Shown here piece by piece: positions 7,416 through 14,543 of a stretch of 29,690 nucleotides of DNA; position 1 is the first letter of the stretch; every line of letters starts with the position of its first letter. The DNA comes from Elusimicrobia bacterium HGW-Elusimicrobia-2 (GTDB lineage: Bacteria > CG03). The translations under genes and the position numbers were made by a program. The stretch is taken from the NCBI GenBank assembly GCA_002841685.1, contig PHAM01000021.1, forward strand, positions 1 through 29,690, in the 5' to 3' direction. The notes below the pieces were generated by a model. That model did not search any database. It saw nothing but the letters and a program-made list of their open reading frames with translations, and was not told the origin of the DNA.

Positions 7416-8699
7416 TTATTTCTGTTTTTCCCACATCAGCAACTGCGCGACAGACGCCAGCGTCGAACCTTCCTTTATTTCTTCCCTTATCCTGTTCTCC
7501 CTCTCCAGGACATCCATGGCCCTGTTTGTGAATTCGGCGGCTTTCTCTTTCGGGATCACCACCACCCCGTCATCATCGCCGATTATCCAGTCTCCCGTTT
7601 TTATCCGCACGCCGCTTATGACTATGGGCACCCCTATCTCTCCGAAACCCTTGGGCTCTCCCGCCTGAGGCGTGATCTCGGAGGAAAAAACCGGCAGATC
7701 CATTTTTTTGATATCCGGCGTGTCCCTGACGGCCCCGTGAATGACAATGCCGCCGAGGCCCTTCTGCAGGGCGCTGTGCGTTGCCAGCTCACCCCATACC
7801 GCGGGTGCGCCGCCGCCGGCGTCTATGACGAGTATGTCTCCTTTTGAGGCCAGGTCTATCGCTTCAACCGGTTTTGCCCAGTCGCCGGGATAGGTCCTGA
7901 CGGTCATCGTGCGGCCCGTCATGTGCTTCCCCGCGGTGACGGCTTTTATACCTTTGAGGGGCAGGCCGCGGTGCAGGGCGTCAGACATGTTCGCCGAGGA
8001 CACTTTACCGAGTACGCTCTTTATATTCTTCTCATCAATCCTGACGAAATACTCGCTGGTTATGCTTGTGTTTTTCTGAAGAGCTTTTTTTATTTTTTTC
8101 GTTTCCGCTTCCGGGTCTTTGGCTTTCGTTATCGCGCCGCCGACGATCACCGTGCCGGCGCCCCGGGAGACGTAAGACGCAGCGGTCTCAGAATTGATAC
8201 CGCCGGCAATGACAACGGGTATGTTGGTACGCCCGACAAGTTTATCGAGCAGGTCCCCTCCCTTTTCGCCCCGCATCTGCTCGTCTATGGAAATGTGTAT
8301 CCCTATATAATTCACTGAAAGAGACAAAAACTTTTCAATTGCCGCCTCATCCGCCTCGCCGATAAAATCAAGCATTATCTCCGCGCCGTAATTCAGCCCC
8401 GCCTCAACGCACTCCTGCACAGTGGAAACGCCCGCGGCGGAACAGACCGTCACTATGCTCGCCCCGGCTTTGGCGGCTATCTCGACTTCCGCGCGGCCAG
8501 TGTCCATTATCTTCATATCGGCGACAATAGGAATGTTTTTGAATTCCCCGCGTAGAGCCCGCACGGCTCCAAGGCCGCAGCTTTTTATCAGCGGCGTACC
8601 CGCCTCAAGAATATCAGCGCCTCCGGCGACCGCCGCTCGCGCGGCTTTAAGAGCCCGAGGCAGATCCACAAAATCAAGCGCTATCTGTAATTTAGCCAT
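7416..8699 (-). CDS. Hexulose-6-phosphate synthase / RraA-family fusion protein
   Basis: This 427-residue fusion has two domains. Residues 1 to about 210 are a 3-hexulose-6-phosphate synthase of the orotidine-5'-phosphate decarboxylase superfamily, with the N-terminal ALDFVD Asp and the DMKIMDTG motif (DxKxxD) that binds metal and substrate. Residues about 215-427 are an RraA-like domain with GGGAPAVWGELA and GAVRD, the region that holds the active site in related HMG/CHA aldolases. HPS condenses formaldehyde with ribulose 5-phosphate or runs in reverse. Such fusions are known and annotated as HPS/ribonuclease regulator. No phosphohexulose isomerase gene is in the window. A strong GGAGG site, inside the yjbQ coding end, precedes the ATG at 8699. 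Confidence 0.9.
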   Translation of the reverse strand: MAKLQIALDFVDLPRALKAARAAVAGGADILEAGTPLIKSCGLGAVRALRGEFKNIPIVADMKIMDTGRAEVEIAAKAGASIVTVCSAAGVSTVQECVEAGLNYGAEIMLDFIGEADEAAIEKFLSLSVNYIGIHISIDEQMRGEKGGDLLDKLVGRTNIPVVIAGGINSETAASYVSRGAGTVIVGGAITKAKDPEAETKKIKKALQKNTSITSEYFVRIDEKNIKSVLGKVSSANMSDALHRGLPLKGIKAVTAGKHMTGRTMTVRTYPGDWAKPVEAIDLASKGDILVIDAGGGAPAVWGELATHSALQKGLGGIVIHGAVRDTPDIKKMDLPVFSSEITPQAGEPKGFGEIGVPIVISGVRIKTGDWIIGDDDGVVVIPKEKAAEFTNRAMDVLERENRIREEIKEGSTLASVAQLLMWEKQK

Positions 8700-9160: not shown

Positions 9161-10825
9161 TTACTCGTTTTCTATTGCGTCAAGGATTTTGTGCAGCCAT
9201 TTCAGCGATTCTGCAATATTGGACAGCGCCTCTTTGTAATTTTCCTTTTTGAGCGCGCCTTCGGCTTTGAGAGTGAGCGATTCCGGATATGAGACATTGA
9301 CCCCCACCTTTCCCGCGTCGCCGGCCAGCGCCCCCGACTCGGTTATCATCGCTTTTATATTATCTTCAAAAAGTTTTTTCACCGATTTTTCTAAAACAGC
9401 GAGTTTGGCCTCGCACTCTTCCAGGTTCCCTTTTTCGCGCAACTCGGAAACACGCTCCTCTATCAATTTCTGAGCGGAAGAATCCCAGCGCATCAAATCC
9501 GCCGTTTTAAGGAGATCGTTCTGTTCAAGGATTCGCCGTTTGAGAGAGTCGCTCCTGTCTTTTTCTATCTTTTGCCTTTCCTCTTCTTGTTTCTTCATCT
9601 GCTTTTGTGAAACCGCGACGGTGTCTCCCACCCGGAATTCCGCTATGGCCTCATGTTCCATAACGAGGCCTTCATAAAGAAAAGGTTCATCGGAGAGTCT
9701 CTGTATAACCCTTCCTCGGGCTGCTATAGCGCTGTCCTTTGTGATGACAAAATTACCGTCAACGGGAAACTCGGAGCTGAAATTTATCCATATCTGCTTT
9801 TCTCCGCGATCAGAAACGCTGCTCACCCTGTCGGTAACACTGCCGGCTTTCACATATCGTTTCGCCTCACGCCTCTTTTCCGCGGCCTTATCAGCGATCC
9901 CGCCGACAAAGCCCGGCATATCAAATTCATAACTCACCGTGCTGAAAATGGAACTGCCCGCGTCGGAGCGGGTCAGATAACTCAAATCCACGGCCACGGG
10001 TTCAAACTCAAAAGAAATCCCCGCTGATATCTGGAGATCGCTTTCCAATTCCGAGAGAATGCCGCATTCCATGATAATATCTTCAAATCCGTATTTCACT
10101 CCGGCGCGAAAACCTGAAGTCTCAGAAGAACGAAGGCCCAGCGACAGAGCGAGATGTCCTATGTGTTCGGTGACAGCGGCCTCGGAAACGGAAAGAGGTG
10201 AAAATTTCTCTCCACTGTAATCTATCTTACCCAGAGAAGCCCTGTGCCAGACCGAGAAACGGGTGTCGGGCTCCCCGGAAACATCCGTGAACAAAGCCGC
10301 GGCGCGGCGAAAAAAGCCGAAGCGGCCTCTCACCTCAAAACCGGCCGAGGGCAAAACGGCGCTCTGGGCGTCCCCGTCAAGATCTTCTCCCGCGGCCGTA
10401 ACCGCCAGGCCCAATCTCAGGACATTTGAGGGCCGGAAACTCAAGGCCGCGGCATATCTGTAGTTGGAATATTCCGCCTCACCCGAAGGAATTCCCTCGT
10501 CGTCGTAGGCCTTTAATGTTTCTGACAGATTCATAATCACCGCGTAAGCGGCGAGAGAAAACTTATCCGACAGCCTCTGGCCGAAACCCGCGGAGCCTAT
10601 GTTGAGATTTCCCAGCCATCCGGCATACGAAAATTCCAGCGCTGTTTTTTCAACTCCGGCGAGCGCCGGATTGGCCAGCGCCGACGATGGCCCGTATTGC
10701 ACGGGGCTCACAGCCTGACGGGCGGAAGAAGGGACATCCAGAAAATCAAAGCAGCTTTGCCCCGGATCTGCCGCAACGAGAGCGGCAAAACAAAAAAGCA
10801 GGGGGAGCGCGTTTAATTTTTTCAT
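9161..10825 (-). CDS. PorV/PorQ-like outer-membrane protein with coiled-coil tail
   Basis: This 554-residue exported protein has a signal peptide (about 1-19). A PorV/UPF0164-like beta-barrel domain (about 24-310) follows, opening with FDFLDVPSSARQA and the ANPA motif, then alternating amphipathic strands. After about 310 comes a basic linker, a small beta domain (about 340-410), a strongly charged coiled coil (about 410-500) and a C-terminal helical pair. PorV in Bacteroidota is a FadL-like barrel that shuttles T9SS cargo to the attachment complex. The upstream gene, overlapping by four bases (ATGA), encodes a protein with a T9SS-like C-terminal signal, so a carrier role is a reasonable inference. 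The long periplasmic or surface tail is not usual for PorV. Confidence 0.75.
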   Translation of the reverse strand: MKKLNALPLLFCFAALVAADPGQSCFDFLDVPSSARQAVSPVQYGPSSALANPALAGVEKTALEFSYAGWLGNLNIGSAGFGQRLSDKFSLAAYAVIMNLSETLKAYDDEGIPSGEAEYSNYRYAAALSFRPSNVLRLGLAVTAAGEDLDGDAQSAVLPSAGFEVRGRFGFFRRAAALFTDVSGEPDTRFSVWHRASLGKIDYSGEKFSPLSVSEAAVTEHIGHLALSLGLRSSETSGFRAGVKYGFEDIIMECGILSELESDLQISAGISFEFEPVAVDLSYLTRSDAGSSIFSTVSYEFDMPGFVGGIADKAAEKRREAKRYVKAGSVTDRVSSVSDRGEKQIWINFSSEFPVDGNFVITKDSAIAARGRVIQRLSDEPFLYEGLVMEHEAIAEFRVGDTVAVSQKQMKKQEEERQKIEKDRSDSLKRRILEQNDLLKTADLMRWDSSAQKLIEERVSELREKGNLEECEAKLAVLEKSVKKLFEDNIKAMITESGALAGDAGKVGVNVSYPESLTLKAEGALKKENYKEALSNIAESLKWLHKILDAIENE

Positions 10826-13800
10826 CTTTTAATCATCAGCATGCCCTTGCTGGTTCCGTCAACCACCCAGAAATATAGCCCGGGCGGCACCTGCGAAAAA
10901 TTCCAGACCCATTCGCCGTTTACCGGATCCGGAGTGACATTTTCCCTCAGAACGCATTTTCCCGATATCGTAAAAACTGATATCTCGGCGGAAGAGCCGA
11001 GATTCGTAAAGGTTATGTTGTTTCCCGTAGCCGGTACAGGATAGGCATAAACACCGGGATCTTTGTTCGCGGTGAATGATGCCGGCGTGACAAAAAGCCA
11101 CACCGCCGGACTCTCGGCTTCAAAAACAACTTCGCAGTTTAAAATATATGACGACGCTTTTTCAAAAGACAGCGTATCGCTGTTATAAATGTAAGGTATG
11201 CCCCCGGAAACGGGAATCACGGCCGTCACTGTGCCGGGCAAAACCTTAAAACCCCTTACGGCGGATCCTGCCACAGTGTATATCGCCGCCAGAGAATCAT
11301 ACGCCGCCTTCTGCGACGAATCCAAATTCGCAGGCAAAGTTGAAATAAAACTAACTGAACCCGGAGATGAAAACTGCCCCGATGCCACCGTCACCGACGA
11401 GCCGTCGGATGCGAAGAATATATTTTTTTCGAAAGGCGAACAGAGAGTCACAAAATAAAAATATGTCGCCGCGCTCATCAGTGTCTCGCCGTCTATGTCT
11501 TTCAGCGATGAGGAAATAACAAGTTTATATCTGTGATTAAATTCAAGGCCGGGCGAAACGCTAAACCCCCGGAGGTCCGTTAAAGCTGTCACCTGATATT
11601 GTGAAGTTGTTAATTTTGTAAGAATGGCATTGCCGAGATTATCCCGCATATCCCATATTTCTACGGAATTTCCCGGAGAGCCGTCTGTGACGGTGTCTAT
11701 CTCTATCTTGAATGTCACTTCCAGCGACGGTGACGTTGAAACGCTCACAGAAGCCGAAAAGGACGACGGCGTGTTTATAAAATTCGTACCCGTATAACAG
11801 GAAATTGAGGGATCGGAAACAGAAAAATTCAGCGCCTCATCATAATTCCTCACCTTTATCCAGTAGCGCTCGTAAGAATCAAGCCCCGTCATTAAGTACG
11901 TTTGCTTTTGTCCGGCGGAAACGGGTGATACAATTGTTTGCGTGGAAACGGCAGAAAAAGCAGCGTCGTTGGAAAAAATAATTTCACAGAAAGCAGCGGA
12001 ACCTTCCTGCCCGTCATCGCCAGGAGCCGTCCAGGAAATAAAAATCCGGCTTTCATCCCGCCAGAGGGCATACGCGAGATCAGTCACAGGCAAAGGAGGA
12101 TAAACGTCAACAACCGTGAATGTCGCTATGTTTGATATGTGCGAGAAAACGCCATCGACATTCTGGCTGAAAACAGCAAAATATGTTTGCGACGAATTCC
12201 CCGGCGCGGGAATGTTTTCTATCACAAAAGTTTCTCCATCACCGGGATTCTTAGGCTGTATCGTGGAAAAATCAATCCCATATTTTGAGAGCGAATCCAC
12301 TTCATTCCATAAATCCGTATTCAGCGTCGGGTCAGTTGAATAATAAACAAAATATTTTTTACAAGGATCTGTTGATTCTTCGTTGTCGTATTTCGCCGGA
12401 GCCGTCCAGGAAAGCCGAACATCGCCGCCAGTGCCGCTGACGCAAAAACCCGTCAGATTCGTGATTGCCGTCGGAGGCCATGTTGTAAAAACCTCATTTG
12501 AATAACGCCTTTCATAGCAATAATTCGTCACAGCCGAAAGGCGAAGATAGGACGGCTGGGCAAGGCCCAAAGCCGAGGCGGAAAAAGTAAAAGGAGCGGA
12601 TGTCAAAAGAGTATCGTGCCTTTTGTAAATCCCGGTCTCTTCGCTCATCCCCGCGTTTGTCCGACCGTTATTGGCGCCGGAATCCCCCCCGGGATATGTG
12701 GAATAAAAAAGATAATAACCGGCAATAGACGCAGAAGCGTCATAATCCCAGTCAATCGTAATAGCATCTCCAGCAATTTCCTTAATAGCAAGATTTTCGG
12801 GCAAGCCCGGCGGCGCGCAATCGCTATATGCTGTATCAGAATTGTAAAAACCAGTCCACGGCAAGTCAGGATAAGCGCAAGTCCTGATGACATCGTAATT
12901 CCCTCCGGAAGAACACTTAAATAACACATTTCCGTCCATATCCGGCCGATAGATTATCGCCCCTTCATTTATTATTCTATTGAGCGTATTGATGTCAGGA
13001 TGAGCGTCGGAGGATCCCCCGTCAATCGGCACCGCAAATTTTGGATTCATCTTCGCAAGAAAAGCGGCTCCCGAACTGCCATTGGTATTTGAGCCGTGAT
13101 GATGAACTTTATAAATATCAGTGTTCGCCAGGTCGCCCGCGGCGCCTGTGTAGGAATATTCGGCAACACCGCTTGTTCCAAGTATCGCGTCCTCCTGCGC
13201 ACCGTAAGCGTCTCCCCCCGTAATAAAAGAGGCGTTACCGACCCATATTTTTTCGACCATCGCCCATATATTGTCGTCATCTCCTGAAACAGGAGGTGTT
13301 TTTTTCTTCGCTAGGATTTTGGCGTTGACGACAGGATCAAAACCCATCCAAGATTTGTCCCCCTCGTTAAAAACCGGTCCTGCATTAGCATTAGGGCCGC
13401 TGGTATATTCCCCTGCTTTCGGCTCAAAATAATGTCCCGCAAGGGAATCCGGGCCGCAACCTTCATTGTTAAGATCATTCATCAAAGTATCATAGGCGCT
13501 TTTATCGCCTTGCGGCCACCTGACCGGCTGAAAAAAGTTTAAAACATTATAGTTCTGAACAACCATAGACAATCCGGTAAAATGGTCAGCTCCGCAACAG
13601 GATAAAATCATAAAATCAATCGTCTTTACACCCGTATCACCGTGCCACGGGAGATTATCCAGAAAATCATCGACCCAGGATGAACTCTTCGTCGAACCCC
13701 GGCCGCCGTCAATCAAAATACATTTATCATCATTCGTCCCGAGTTTTCCATCTGCCCCCGGCAATTCAATAAATTCGCAATCGCCGTAATTCCCCTGACC

Positions 13801-13956
13801 CCAAAGAATAAAATGAATCCTCATATAATCTTCGGCATACAAATTAAACGGGACGGAGGTAATTAAAAAGAAAACTATCCAAATTTTTCTAAAAAATTTT
13901 AACACCTTTTCATTCTTTGAAAAATGGTAGAAACCATCTTCATTAGATTGTTTCAT
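10822..13956 (-). CDS. Secreted ComEC-type MBL-fold protein with FN3 and T9SS-like C-terminal domain
   Basis: This 1044-residue multidomain protein starts with a signal peptide with a long basic N-region (1-41, ending LYA). Residues about 45-365 form a metallo-beta-lactamase fold like the ComEC C-terminal domain: IHFILWGQGN, LIDGG (81-85), SCCGADH (119-125), TGGD (247-249) and KVHHHGSNTN from 283. Three fibronectin type III domains (about 390-720), an Ig-like Big_5-type domain (about 740-855), a linker domain and a C-terminal T9SS type A-like sorting domain (about 965-1044, ending PPGLYFWVVD...MLMIKR) follow. Two usual zinc-site histidines are Cys120 and Gly122. It overlaps plsY and the PorV-like gene by four bases each. 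Its DNA looks more AT-rich than its neighbours. Confidence 0.85.
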   Translation of the reverse strand: MKQSNEDGFYHFSKNEKVLKFFRKIWIVFFLITSVPFNLYAEDYMRIHFILWGQGNYGDCEFIELPGADGKLGTNDDKCILIDGGRGSTKSSSWVDDFLDNLPWHGDTGVKTIDFMILSCCGADHFTGLSMVVQNYNVLNFFQPVRWPQGDKSAYDTLMNDLNNEGCGPDSLAGHYFEPKAGEYTSGPNANAGPVFNEGDKSWMGFDPVVNAKILAKKKTPPVSGDDDNIWAMVEKIWVGNASFITGGDAYGAQEDAILGTSGVAEYSYTGAAGDLANTDIYKVHHHGSNTNGSSGAAFLAKMNPKFAVPIDGGSSDAHPDINTLNRIINEGAIIYRPDMDGNVLFKCSSGGNYDVIRTCAYPDLPWTGFYNSDTAYSDCAPPGLPENLAIKEIAGDAITIDWDYDASASIAGYYLFYSTYPGGDSGANNGRTNAGMSEETGIYKRHDTLLTSAPFTFSASALGLAQPSYLRLSAVTNYCYERRYSNEVFTTWPPTAITNLTGFCVSGTGGDVRLSWTAPAKYDNEESTDPCKKYFVYYSTDPTLNTDLWNEVDSLSKYGIDFSTIQPKNPGDGETFVIENIPAPGNSSQTYFAVFSQNVDGVFSHISNIATFTVVDVYPPLPVTDLAYALWRDESRIFISWTAPGDDGQEGSAAFCEIIFSNDAAFSAVSTQTIVSPVSAGQKQTYLMTGLDSYERYWIKVRNYDEALNFSVSDPSISCYTGTNFINTPSSFSASVSVSTSPSLEVTFKIEIDTVTDGSPGNSVEIWDMRDNLGNAILTKLTTSQYQVTALTDLRGFSVSPGLEFNHRYKLVISSSLKDIDGETLMSAATYFYFVTLCSPFEKNIFFASDGSSVTVASGQFSSPGSVSFISTLPANLDSSQKAAYDSLAAIYTVAGSAVRGFKVLPGTVTAVIPVSGGIPYIYNSDTLSFEKASSYILNCEVVFEAESPAVWLFVTPASFTANKDPGVYAYPVPATGNNITFTNLGSSAEISVFTISGKCVLRENVTPDPVNGEWVWNFSQVPPGLYFWVVDGTSKGMLMIKR

Positions 13957-14543
13957 AATTTTGACGCTTTTTTTTCTTCGCCGCGGAAAAGCCTGGCGAT
14001 GTTTGCCCTGTGCGAAAACAAAACAAAAGCAAACGCCGCCACGGCGAATATTTTAATTTCCGCTGACAGGCTGAATATAAAACAGAAAACGGGGAAAAAA
14101 CCCACCGCTATAATTGACGACAGCGAAATTATGCCAGACAGCGCGAAAACAACAACGAACACGGCAAAACTGGAAAGAAGGCAAAGCGGCGCGAGAGCCG
14201 ACGCCACGCCGGCGGAAGAGGCGACGCCTTTTCCGCCCCGGCCTTTAAGAAAAATTGAAAAATTGTGACCGAGGATAACCATCATACCCAGAGCGATCTT
14301 CAGAGTATAGCTTTCTCCGAAGAAAAAAGGAAAAATAAAACCTTTGGCAAAATCCAGAAAAAAAACAAGGAGCGCCGCGGCCAGCCCAGCGGCCCTGTAA
14401 ACATTCGTAGCGCCGATGGAGCCGGAGCCGAGTTCCCGCACATCCCTGCCCTTGAACAGCTTGACATAGATCCAGCCGAAAGGAACTGAGCCCGCGATGA
14501 ACGCGGCGATGATCAAAAAAACGGTCATCCAAGTTTCTGCCAT
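13953..14543 (-). CDS. plsY: Glycerol-3-phosphate acyltransferase PlsY
   Basis: This 196-residue membrane enzyme transfers an acyl group from acyl-phosphate to glycerol 3-phosphate, the first step in phosphatidic acid synthesis. The family motifs are present: GSVPFGWIYVK near the start, RELGSGSIGATNVYR and GHNFSIFLKGRGGKG, which form the phosphate- and substrate-binding loops. About five to six membrane segments and the length are normal. The ATG at 14543 overlaps the end of der by 19 bases. PlsX, its usual partner that makes acyl-phosphate, is not in the window. Confidence 0.96.
   Translation of the reverse strand: MAETWMTVFLIIAAFIAGSVPFGWIYVKLFKGRDVRELGSGSIGATNVYRAAGLAAALLVFFLDFAKGFIFPFFFGESYTLKIALGMMVILGHNFSIFLKGRGGKGVASSAGVASALAPLCLLSSFAVFVVVFALSGIISLSSIIAVGFFPVFCFIFSLSAEIKIFAVAAFAFVLFSHRANIARLFRGEEKKASKL

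Follow-up and report, generated by a model that had tools for sequence, protein, structure and literature searches.

In Bacteroidota, all type A C-terminal sorting domains (CTDs) of the T9SS use a single PorV (PMC12618676). The type B CTDs have dedicated PorP/SprF shuttles, such as those of F. johnsoniae SprB-SprF and P. gingivalis PG1035-PorP (PMC12618676, PMC9143113). It has been demonstrated for the type B CTD/SprF pairs that each shuttle mainly serves its neighbouring cargo (PMC12618676), and type B cargo stays attached to its PorP-like shuttle (PMC9143113). By one account the T9SS occurs only in Bacteroidota (PMC12618676); by another its genes are confined to the FCB group and missing outside it (PMC11285876). 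Pairs of PorV and type A CTDs were not found described in the open-licence literature. The known dedicated shuttles are PorP/SprF with type B, whereas the pairs reported here join a type-A-like CTD to a carrier of the PorV family and lie outside Bacteroidota.

The window, by which we mean the whole analysed stretch of 29,690 nucleotides from Elusimicrobia bacterium HGW-Elusimicrobia-2, contains a cargo-carrier gene pair placed between plsY and yjbQ within a housekeeping operon. Domain searches of the window gave TamB, YifB, HflX, Der and PlsY upstream of the pair and YjbQ and HPS-RraA downstream, in agreement with the operon setting described earlier. The HPS-RraA gene (7416-8699) encodes a hexulose-6-phosphate synthase fused to an RraA-like domain (PRK07028). 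The four-base overlap of a secreted protein gene with a PorV-like gene, which had been predicted from the sequence, was borne out by the two reading frames. The features are as follows.

13953..14543: plsY, sharing 4 bases with the cargo gene
10822..13956 (-): cargo gene, 1044 aa; N-terminal export signal, degenerate MBL-fold passenger, fn3/Ig region and type-A-like CTD
12832..13830 (-): passenger, ComEC/MBL-like, aa ~43-375 (TIGR00361, 1.6e-7)
11962..12831 (-): fn3-like linker, aa 376-665 (PF00041)
10825..11076 (-): type-A-like C-terminal sorting domain, aa 961-1044, ending ...GMLMIKR (TIGR04183)
10822..10825 (-): 4 bp shared by the cargo stop and the carrier start (ORF coordinates)
9161..10825 (-): PorV/PorQ-family outer-membrane carrier gene, 554 aa (NF033711, NF033709 and phylum family profile)
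9920..10768 (-): PorV-like barrel region, aa ~20-302 (NF033711/NF033709 and family profile)
9164..9919 (-): C-terminal extension, aa 303-554, predicted small beta domain and helices (pLDDT mostly 60-86)

We consider it probable that this pair belongs to a divergent T9SS in a candidate phylum which NCBI files near Elusimicrobiota, and that the CTD-PorV unit is a reusable carrier and anchor module. The notion of a reusable module follows from the many units per genome with different passengers. The original prediction had described a single cargo-carrier pair; the pair exists, but it is not a single occurrence, about 18-23 such pairs being present in the genome.

The window's genome (1.78 Mb, 96% complete) contains about 28 PorV-family genes by the phylum profile (25-30 PorV_fam matches), and for 18 of these 28 the gene immediately upstream on that strand encodes a CTD cargo. 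Only 7 of 239 other genes in these stretches have such an upstream neighbour, and in the distant phylum member G009 10 of 13 PorVs examined are paired versus 3 of 97 other genes; both comparisons are biased, the stretches having been chosen around PorV or tails. The fair test is therefore that of the 11 TIGR04183 tails selected independently of PorV. For seven of the 11, a PorV-family match in the same orientation begins no more than 700 bp downstream, where chance would give 0.6% each and 0.07 in total (P about 9e-14). An eighth tail with a PorV neighbour, C22, was detected through the phylum-specific profile. One or two genes separate cargo from PorV at C13 and C66, and the order is reversed at C77. 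Phylum-wide, PorV is found downstream of at least 32 of 77 independent tail matches and upstream of none among the matches listed. The 4-bp overlap occurs in 14 of the 18 pairs of the window's genome and in 32 of 62 pairs overall, but it was rejected as a special mark of the pairs because it is common among all adjacent gene pairs of that genome (61/207).

PorV_fam members above the cut-off are present in all 16 phylum genomes, with 6-35 matches each. CTD-PorV pairs occur also in genomes of other phylum-level lineages (G018, G022, G024, G033 and G040), and in G033 two cargo-PorV pairs stand in tandem. Relatives of the window pair are found in MAG 01_128 and in Elusimicrobia bacterium CG03_land_8_20_14_0_80_50_18, the latter placed by NCBI under unclassified Elusimicrobiota. 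The pair is conserved in relatives: synteny of the window locus extends to G003, to G006 and, for the three genes checked, to G005. Between the window's genome (G000) and G003 the neighbouring genes are 85-98% identical, the PorV 93% and the CTD 90%. The first 375 cargo residues are 40% identical between these two genomes and 86% identical between G003 and G001, and at the syntenic locus of G006 a PLD-like passenger (PLDc_2) replaces the MBL. At this locus the passenger domain has been swapped while the neighbours, PorV and CTD were conserved, as is expected if CTD and PorV form a functional carrier module.

Across 48 non-redundant pairs the divergence of the CTD goes with that of its neighbouring PorV (Spearman 0.39, 0/1000 permutations), a significant correlation which does not separate co-inheritance from binding specificity; the nearest CTD matches the nearest PorV in 19 of these pairs. 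CTD-PorV distances are uncorrelated inside the window's genome alone (Spearman 0.08, 17 non-redundant pairs), and the co-divergence may therefore reflect vertical inheritance of pairs and not binding specificity. A first Mantel test (r 0.56) was dropped, near-duplicate pairs having inflated r, which was weak after their removal.

The lack of correlation within the genome would also suit a common pool, in which any PorV paralogue serves any type-A-like CTD and the pairs result merely from duplication in tandem and from co-regulation that keeps the supply stoichiometric. The pairs share one CTD consensus, as a pool would predict, and the Bacteroidota type A CTDs with their one PorV (PMC12618676) are a precedent for it. 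In addition, 10 of the 28 PorV genes of the window's genome have no cargo directly upstream and several CTD genes are without a PorV neighbour, which makes carrier sharing likely for part of the set. We nevertheless regard a common pool as rather unlikely, because it leaves unexplained the strong cargo-then-carrier order of the 77 tails, the co-divergence of pairs across genomes and the retention of CTD and PorV together while passengers were exchanged. The preferred reading remains that of cognate carrier modules. From gene order, and by analogy with the type B CTD/SprF pairs, we infer that each PorV mainly serves its neighbouring cargo; that a PorV would be reserved for a single cargo is suggested by gene order, co-divergence and passenger swapping.

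As to the T9SS core, a SprA/Sov translocon, a PorV-family shuttle and TIGR04183 CTD substrates were found among the parts by which T9SS membership was judged. A SprA/Sov-like protein, some 1650-1760 aa long, was present in 15 of the 16 phylum genomes (TIGR04189), one per genome, the exception being a 63%-complete genome of 0.7 Mb. The full SprA-like protein of the window's genome scored 149 bits against TIGR04189, under the equivalog cut-off of 200 bits. A SprA-like profile of 12 sequences matched F. johnsoniae SprA (6h3i/6h3j) in four stretches at 2e-21 and no other PDB entry. A C25 peptidase of the PorU type was found in five of the 16 genomes, that of the window included, with no match in the other 11; the matches fall below the NF033707 cut-off. 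In G003 the C25 peptidase lies in a protein of 805 aa with a CTD-like tail and no adjacent PorV, like PorU. The original prediction of a divergent T9SS had been tied to core genes and CTD profile similarity, and both are present in the window's genome, which encodes the SprA-like translocon, about 28 PorV-family proteins, the PorU-type C25 peptidase and 11 TIGR04183-type tails, 10 of them above the cut-off. Together with the conservation of the pair, these support its assignment as a carrier-cargo unit of such a system, in which exclusivity would be the part drawn from gene order and divergence.

PorM/GldM gave no match in any of the 16 genomes; the controls and 22 other genomes gave none either, so that this search had no positive control. 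PorL/GldL gave nothing above noise level among the phylum genomes, likewise without a positive control. We do not claim a motorless T9SS, as the motor profile was silent everywhere, the 22 other genomes included. On the strand opposite the SprA-like gene, and about 1.4 kb away from it, lies a gene for a MotB_plug, OmpA and TPR protein (L026:782-1579, G000:C93), and a gene of similar size is found at the equivalent position in G003 (L218). This protein is possibly a motor part.

The carrier of 554 aa matched the PorQ model NF033711 at 1.8e-12 (47 bits, curated cut-off 220) and the PorV_fam model NF033709 at 5e-7 (29.5 bits, curated cut-off 90). As these matches do not reach the curated cut-offs, the predicted PorV-like identity stands in the form of a divergent PorV/PorQ member. 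PorV-family relatives within the window's genome score up to 179 bits, and the phylum PorV profile takes in the window carrier, one of its own seeds, at 3e-71. The barrel was not recovered by AlphaFold with a 3-row alignment (mean pLDDT 46). The C-terminal extension is probably periplasmic. Its residues 324-406 align to small beta-barrel domains in a comparison of predicted folds (Z 9.6 over 68 residues); the fold matches, to F1-ATPase and HerA N-terminal domains, are of a common type and were given no functional weight.

PorV is of the FadL fold, and the PorV-like proteins could in principle be transporters of the FadL type, or else generic proteins of the outer membrane that are expressed together with surface proteins, and not shuttles. 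The weak UPF0164-like matches and the FadL-type TodX as second-best hit point this way. However, the family profile with the window barrel stretch as its first row (A3) matches F. johnsoniae PorV (6h3i_F) at 8e-33 versus 5e-7 for TodX, the association is specific to CTD-tailed genes, and the SprA-like protein is encoded in the same genomes, all of which makes this explanation very unlikely.

In the cargo, the N-terminal export signal was judged by eye. Lactamase_B was matched in the cargo orthologues of G003, G001 and G005. In an alignment of five orthologues the metal motif HxHxDH reads LTHPHDDH in the relatives versus SCCGADH in the window cargo, whose MBL motif is degenerate. The window CTD passes TIGR04183 (26.7 bits, cut-off 23) and stays below the cut-off of Pfam Por_Secre_tail (PF18962; 20.8, cut-off 27). 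With the fn3 and TIGR00361 matches, this upholds the type-A-like sorting domain on an MBL/FN3/Ig cargo that had been read from the sequence. The type B CTD model TIGR04131 and the PorP model PF11751 had no match in the window pair in profile searches. An alignment of the CTDs of 32 pairs shows invariant G, W, G and Y and a C-terminal K/R in 30 of the 32. The FlgD Ig-like and CHU_C domains (PF13860, PF13585) are matched by some of the phylum's cargo tails; unlike these tails, the window tail scores with TIGR04183 and Por_Secre_tail and not with PF13860/PF13585. A model of the window CTD (pLDDT 67, low confidence) has five strands and only weak matches, FlgD Ig-like first, and it does not tell a T9SS CTD from FlgD_ig. 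Several tails score higher with FlgD_ig than with Por_Secre_tail and the CTD model leans weakly to FlgD, but that the domains are FlgD-like Ig domains of surface proteins with another export route and a convergent type A likeness is the least probable reading of all, given 10 tails above the TIGR04183 cut-off, the position at the extreme C-terminus with its K/R end, and the SprA and PorV homologues.

The working of the divergent T9SS may be depicted as follows, with Sec export, SprA translocation and PorV extraction modelled on the known Bacteroidota system (PMC12618676, PMC10994853) and on the homologies described here. The cargo would be synthesized with its N-terminal export signal and carried across the inner membrane by Sec. 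The Ig-like CTD would then be delivered to the one SprA/Sov-like outer-membrane translocon, where the PorV-family barrel from the gene directly downstream would bind the CTD and pull the cargo out of the translocon. As the carrier gene follows directly, cargo and carrier are probably made in step by translational coupling. The CTD would usually stay uncleaved and the cargo would remain displayed on its own PorV as anchor, which is suggested by the lack of a detected PorU-type protease in most genomes and by the periplasmic PorV extensions. A fuller version, put forward tentatively, is that of a non-Bacteroidota T9SS lineage with one cognate PorV for each type-A-like cargo, PorV as both shuttle and permanent anchor, the sortase step absent in most members and a motor not of the PorL/PorM type.

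This arrangement resembles the type B CTD and PorP/SprF pairs in the shuttle gene directly downstream, in several paralogous pairs per genome and in one common SprA translocon, and the proposed retention of cargo on its carrier resembles PorP-type anchoring (PMC9143113). It differs from them in that the carrier is of the PorV/PorQ family and the CTD is type-A-like (TIGR04183/FlgD_ig). With the canonical type A export of Bacteroidota, which runs through SprA-PorV and has the PorU/PorZ/PorQ attachment complex, it shares the SprA-like translocon, a PorV-family carrier and the type-A-like CTD and, in the genus of the window and one further genus, a C25 peptidase. In contrast to canonical export, there are about 28 PorV-family genes and not one PorV, each mostly adjoining its own cargo; C25 is missing in 11 of 16 genomes and PorL/PorM are undetected (in searches without a positive control); and the organism lies outside the Bacteroidota group of phyla. 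A SprA and many-PorV system in a phylum placed near Elusimicrobiota, with each cargo gene adjoined by that of its carrier, would, if true, alter the statements on T9SS exclusivity and on a single PorV, and it bears on the definition of a minimal T9SS. Natural cognate CTD-PorV pairs would also be material for deciphering the recognition code and a route to predicting the displayed proteins of uncultured bacteria.

Many PorV-family proteins carry extensions, with TPR in many, CsgG/LpoB-like domains in several and OmpA in one. One of these PorV-family proteins (L108:1825-4206, G000:C72) is a fusion with TPR, an OmpA peptidoglycan-binding domain and two CsgG-like stretches, and it recalls PorP plus PorE in a single chain. 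Another (L027:5243-6667, G000:C14) has a ComEA-type helix-hairpin-helix (HHH_3) and TPR; it would be unusual for a carrier in the outer membrane to bind DNA.

Small gene pairs resembling MNT (nucleotidyltransferase) and HEPN were seen by eye between CTD and PorV genes at two loci (L031:3447-4119, G000:C13; L107:5516-6198, G000:C27), as though the CTD-PorV pair had received a toxin-antitoxin-like module by insertion. Two nearly identical CTD-PorV pairs (L035 and L109; G000:C10 and C91), with a distance of 0.04 in both parts, appear to be a recent duplication of the whole unit. Finally, a subtilisin (Peptidase_S8) with a CTD tail is paired with its own PorV (L112:11144-12706, G000:C31).
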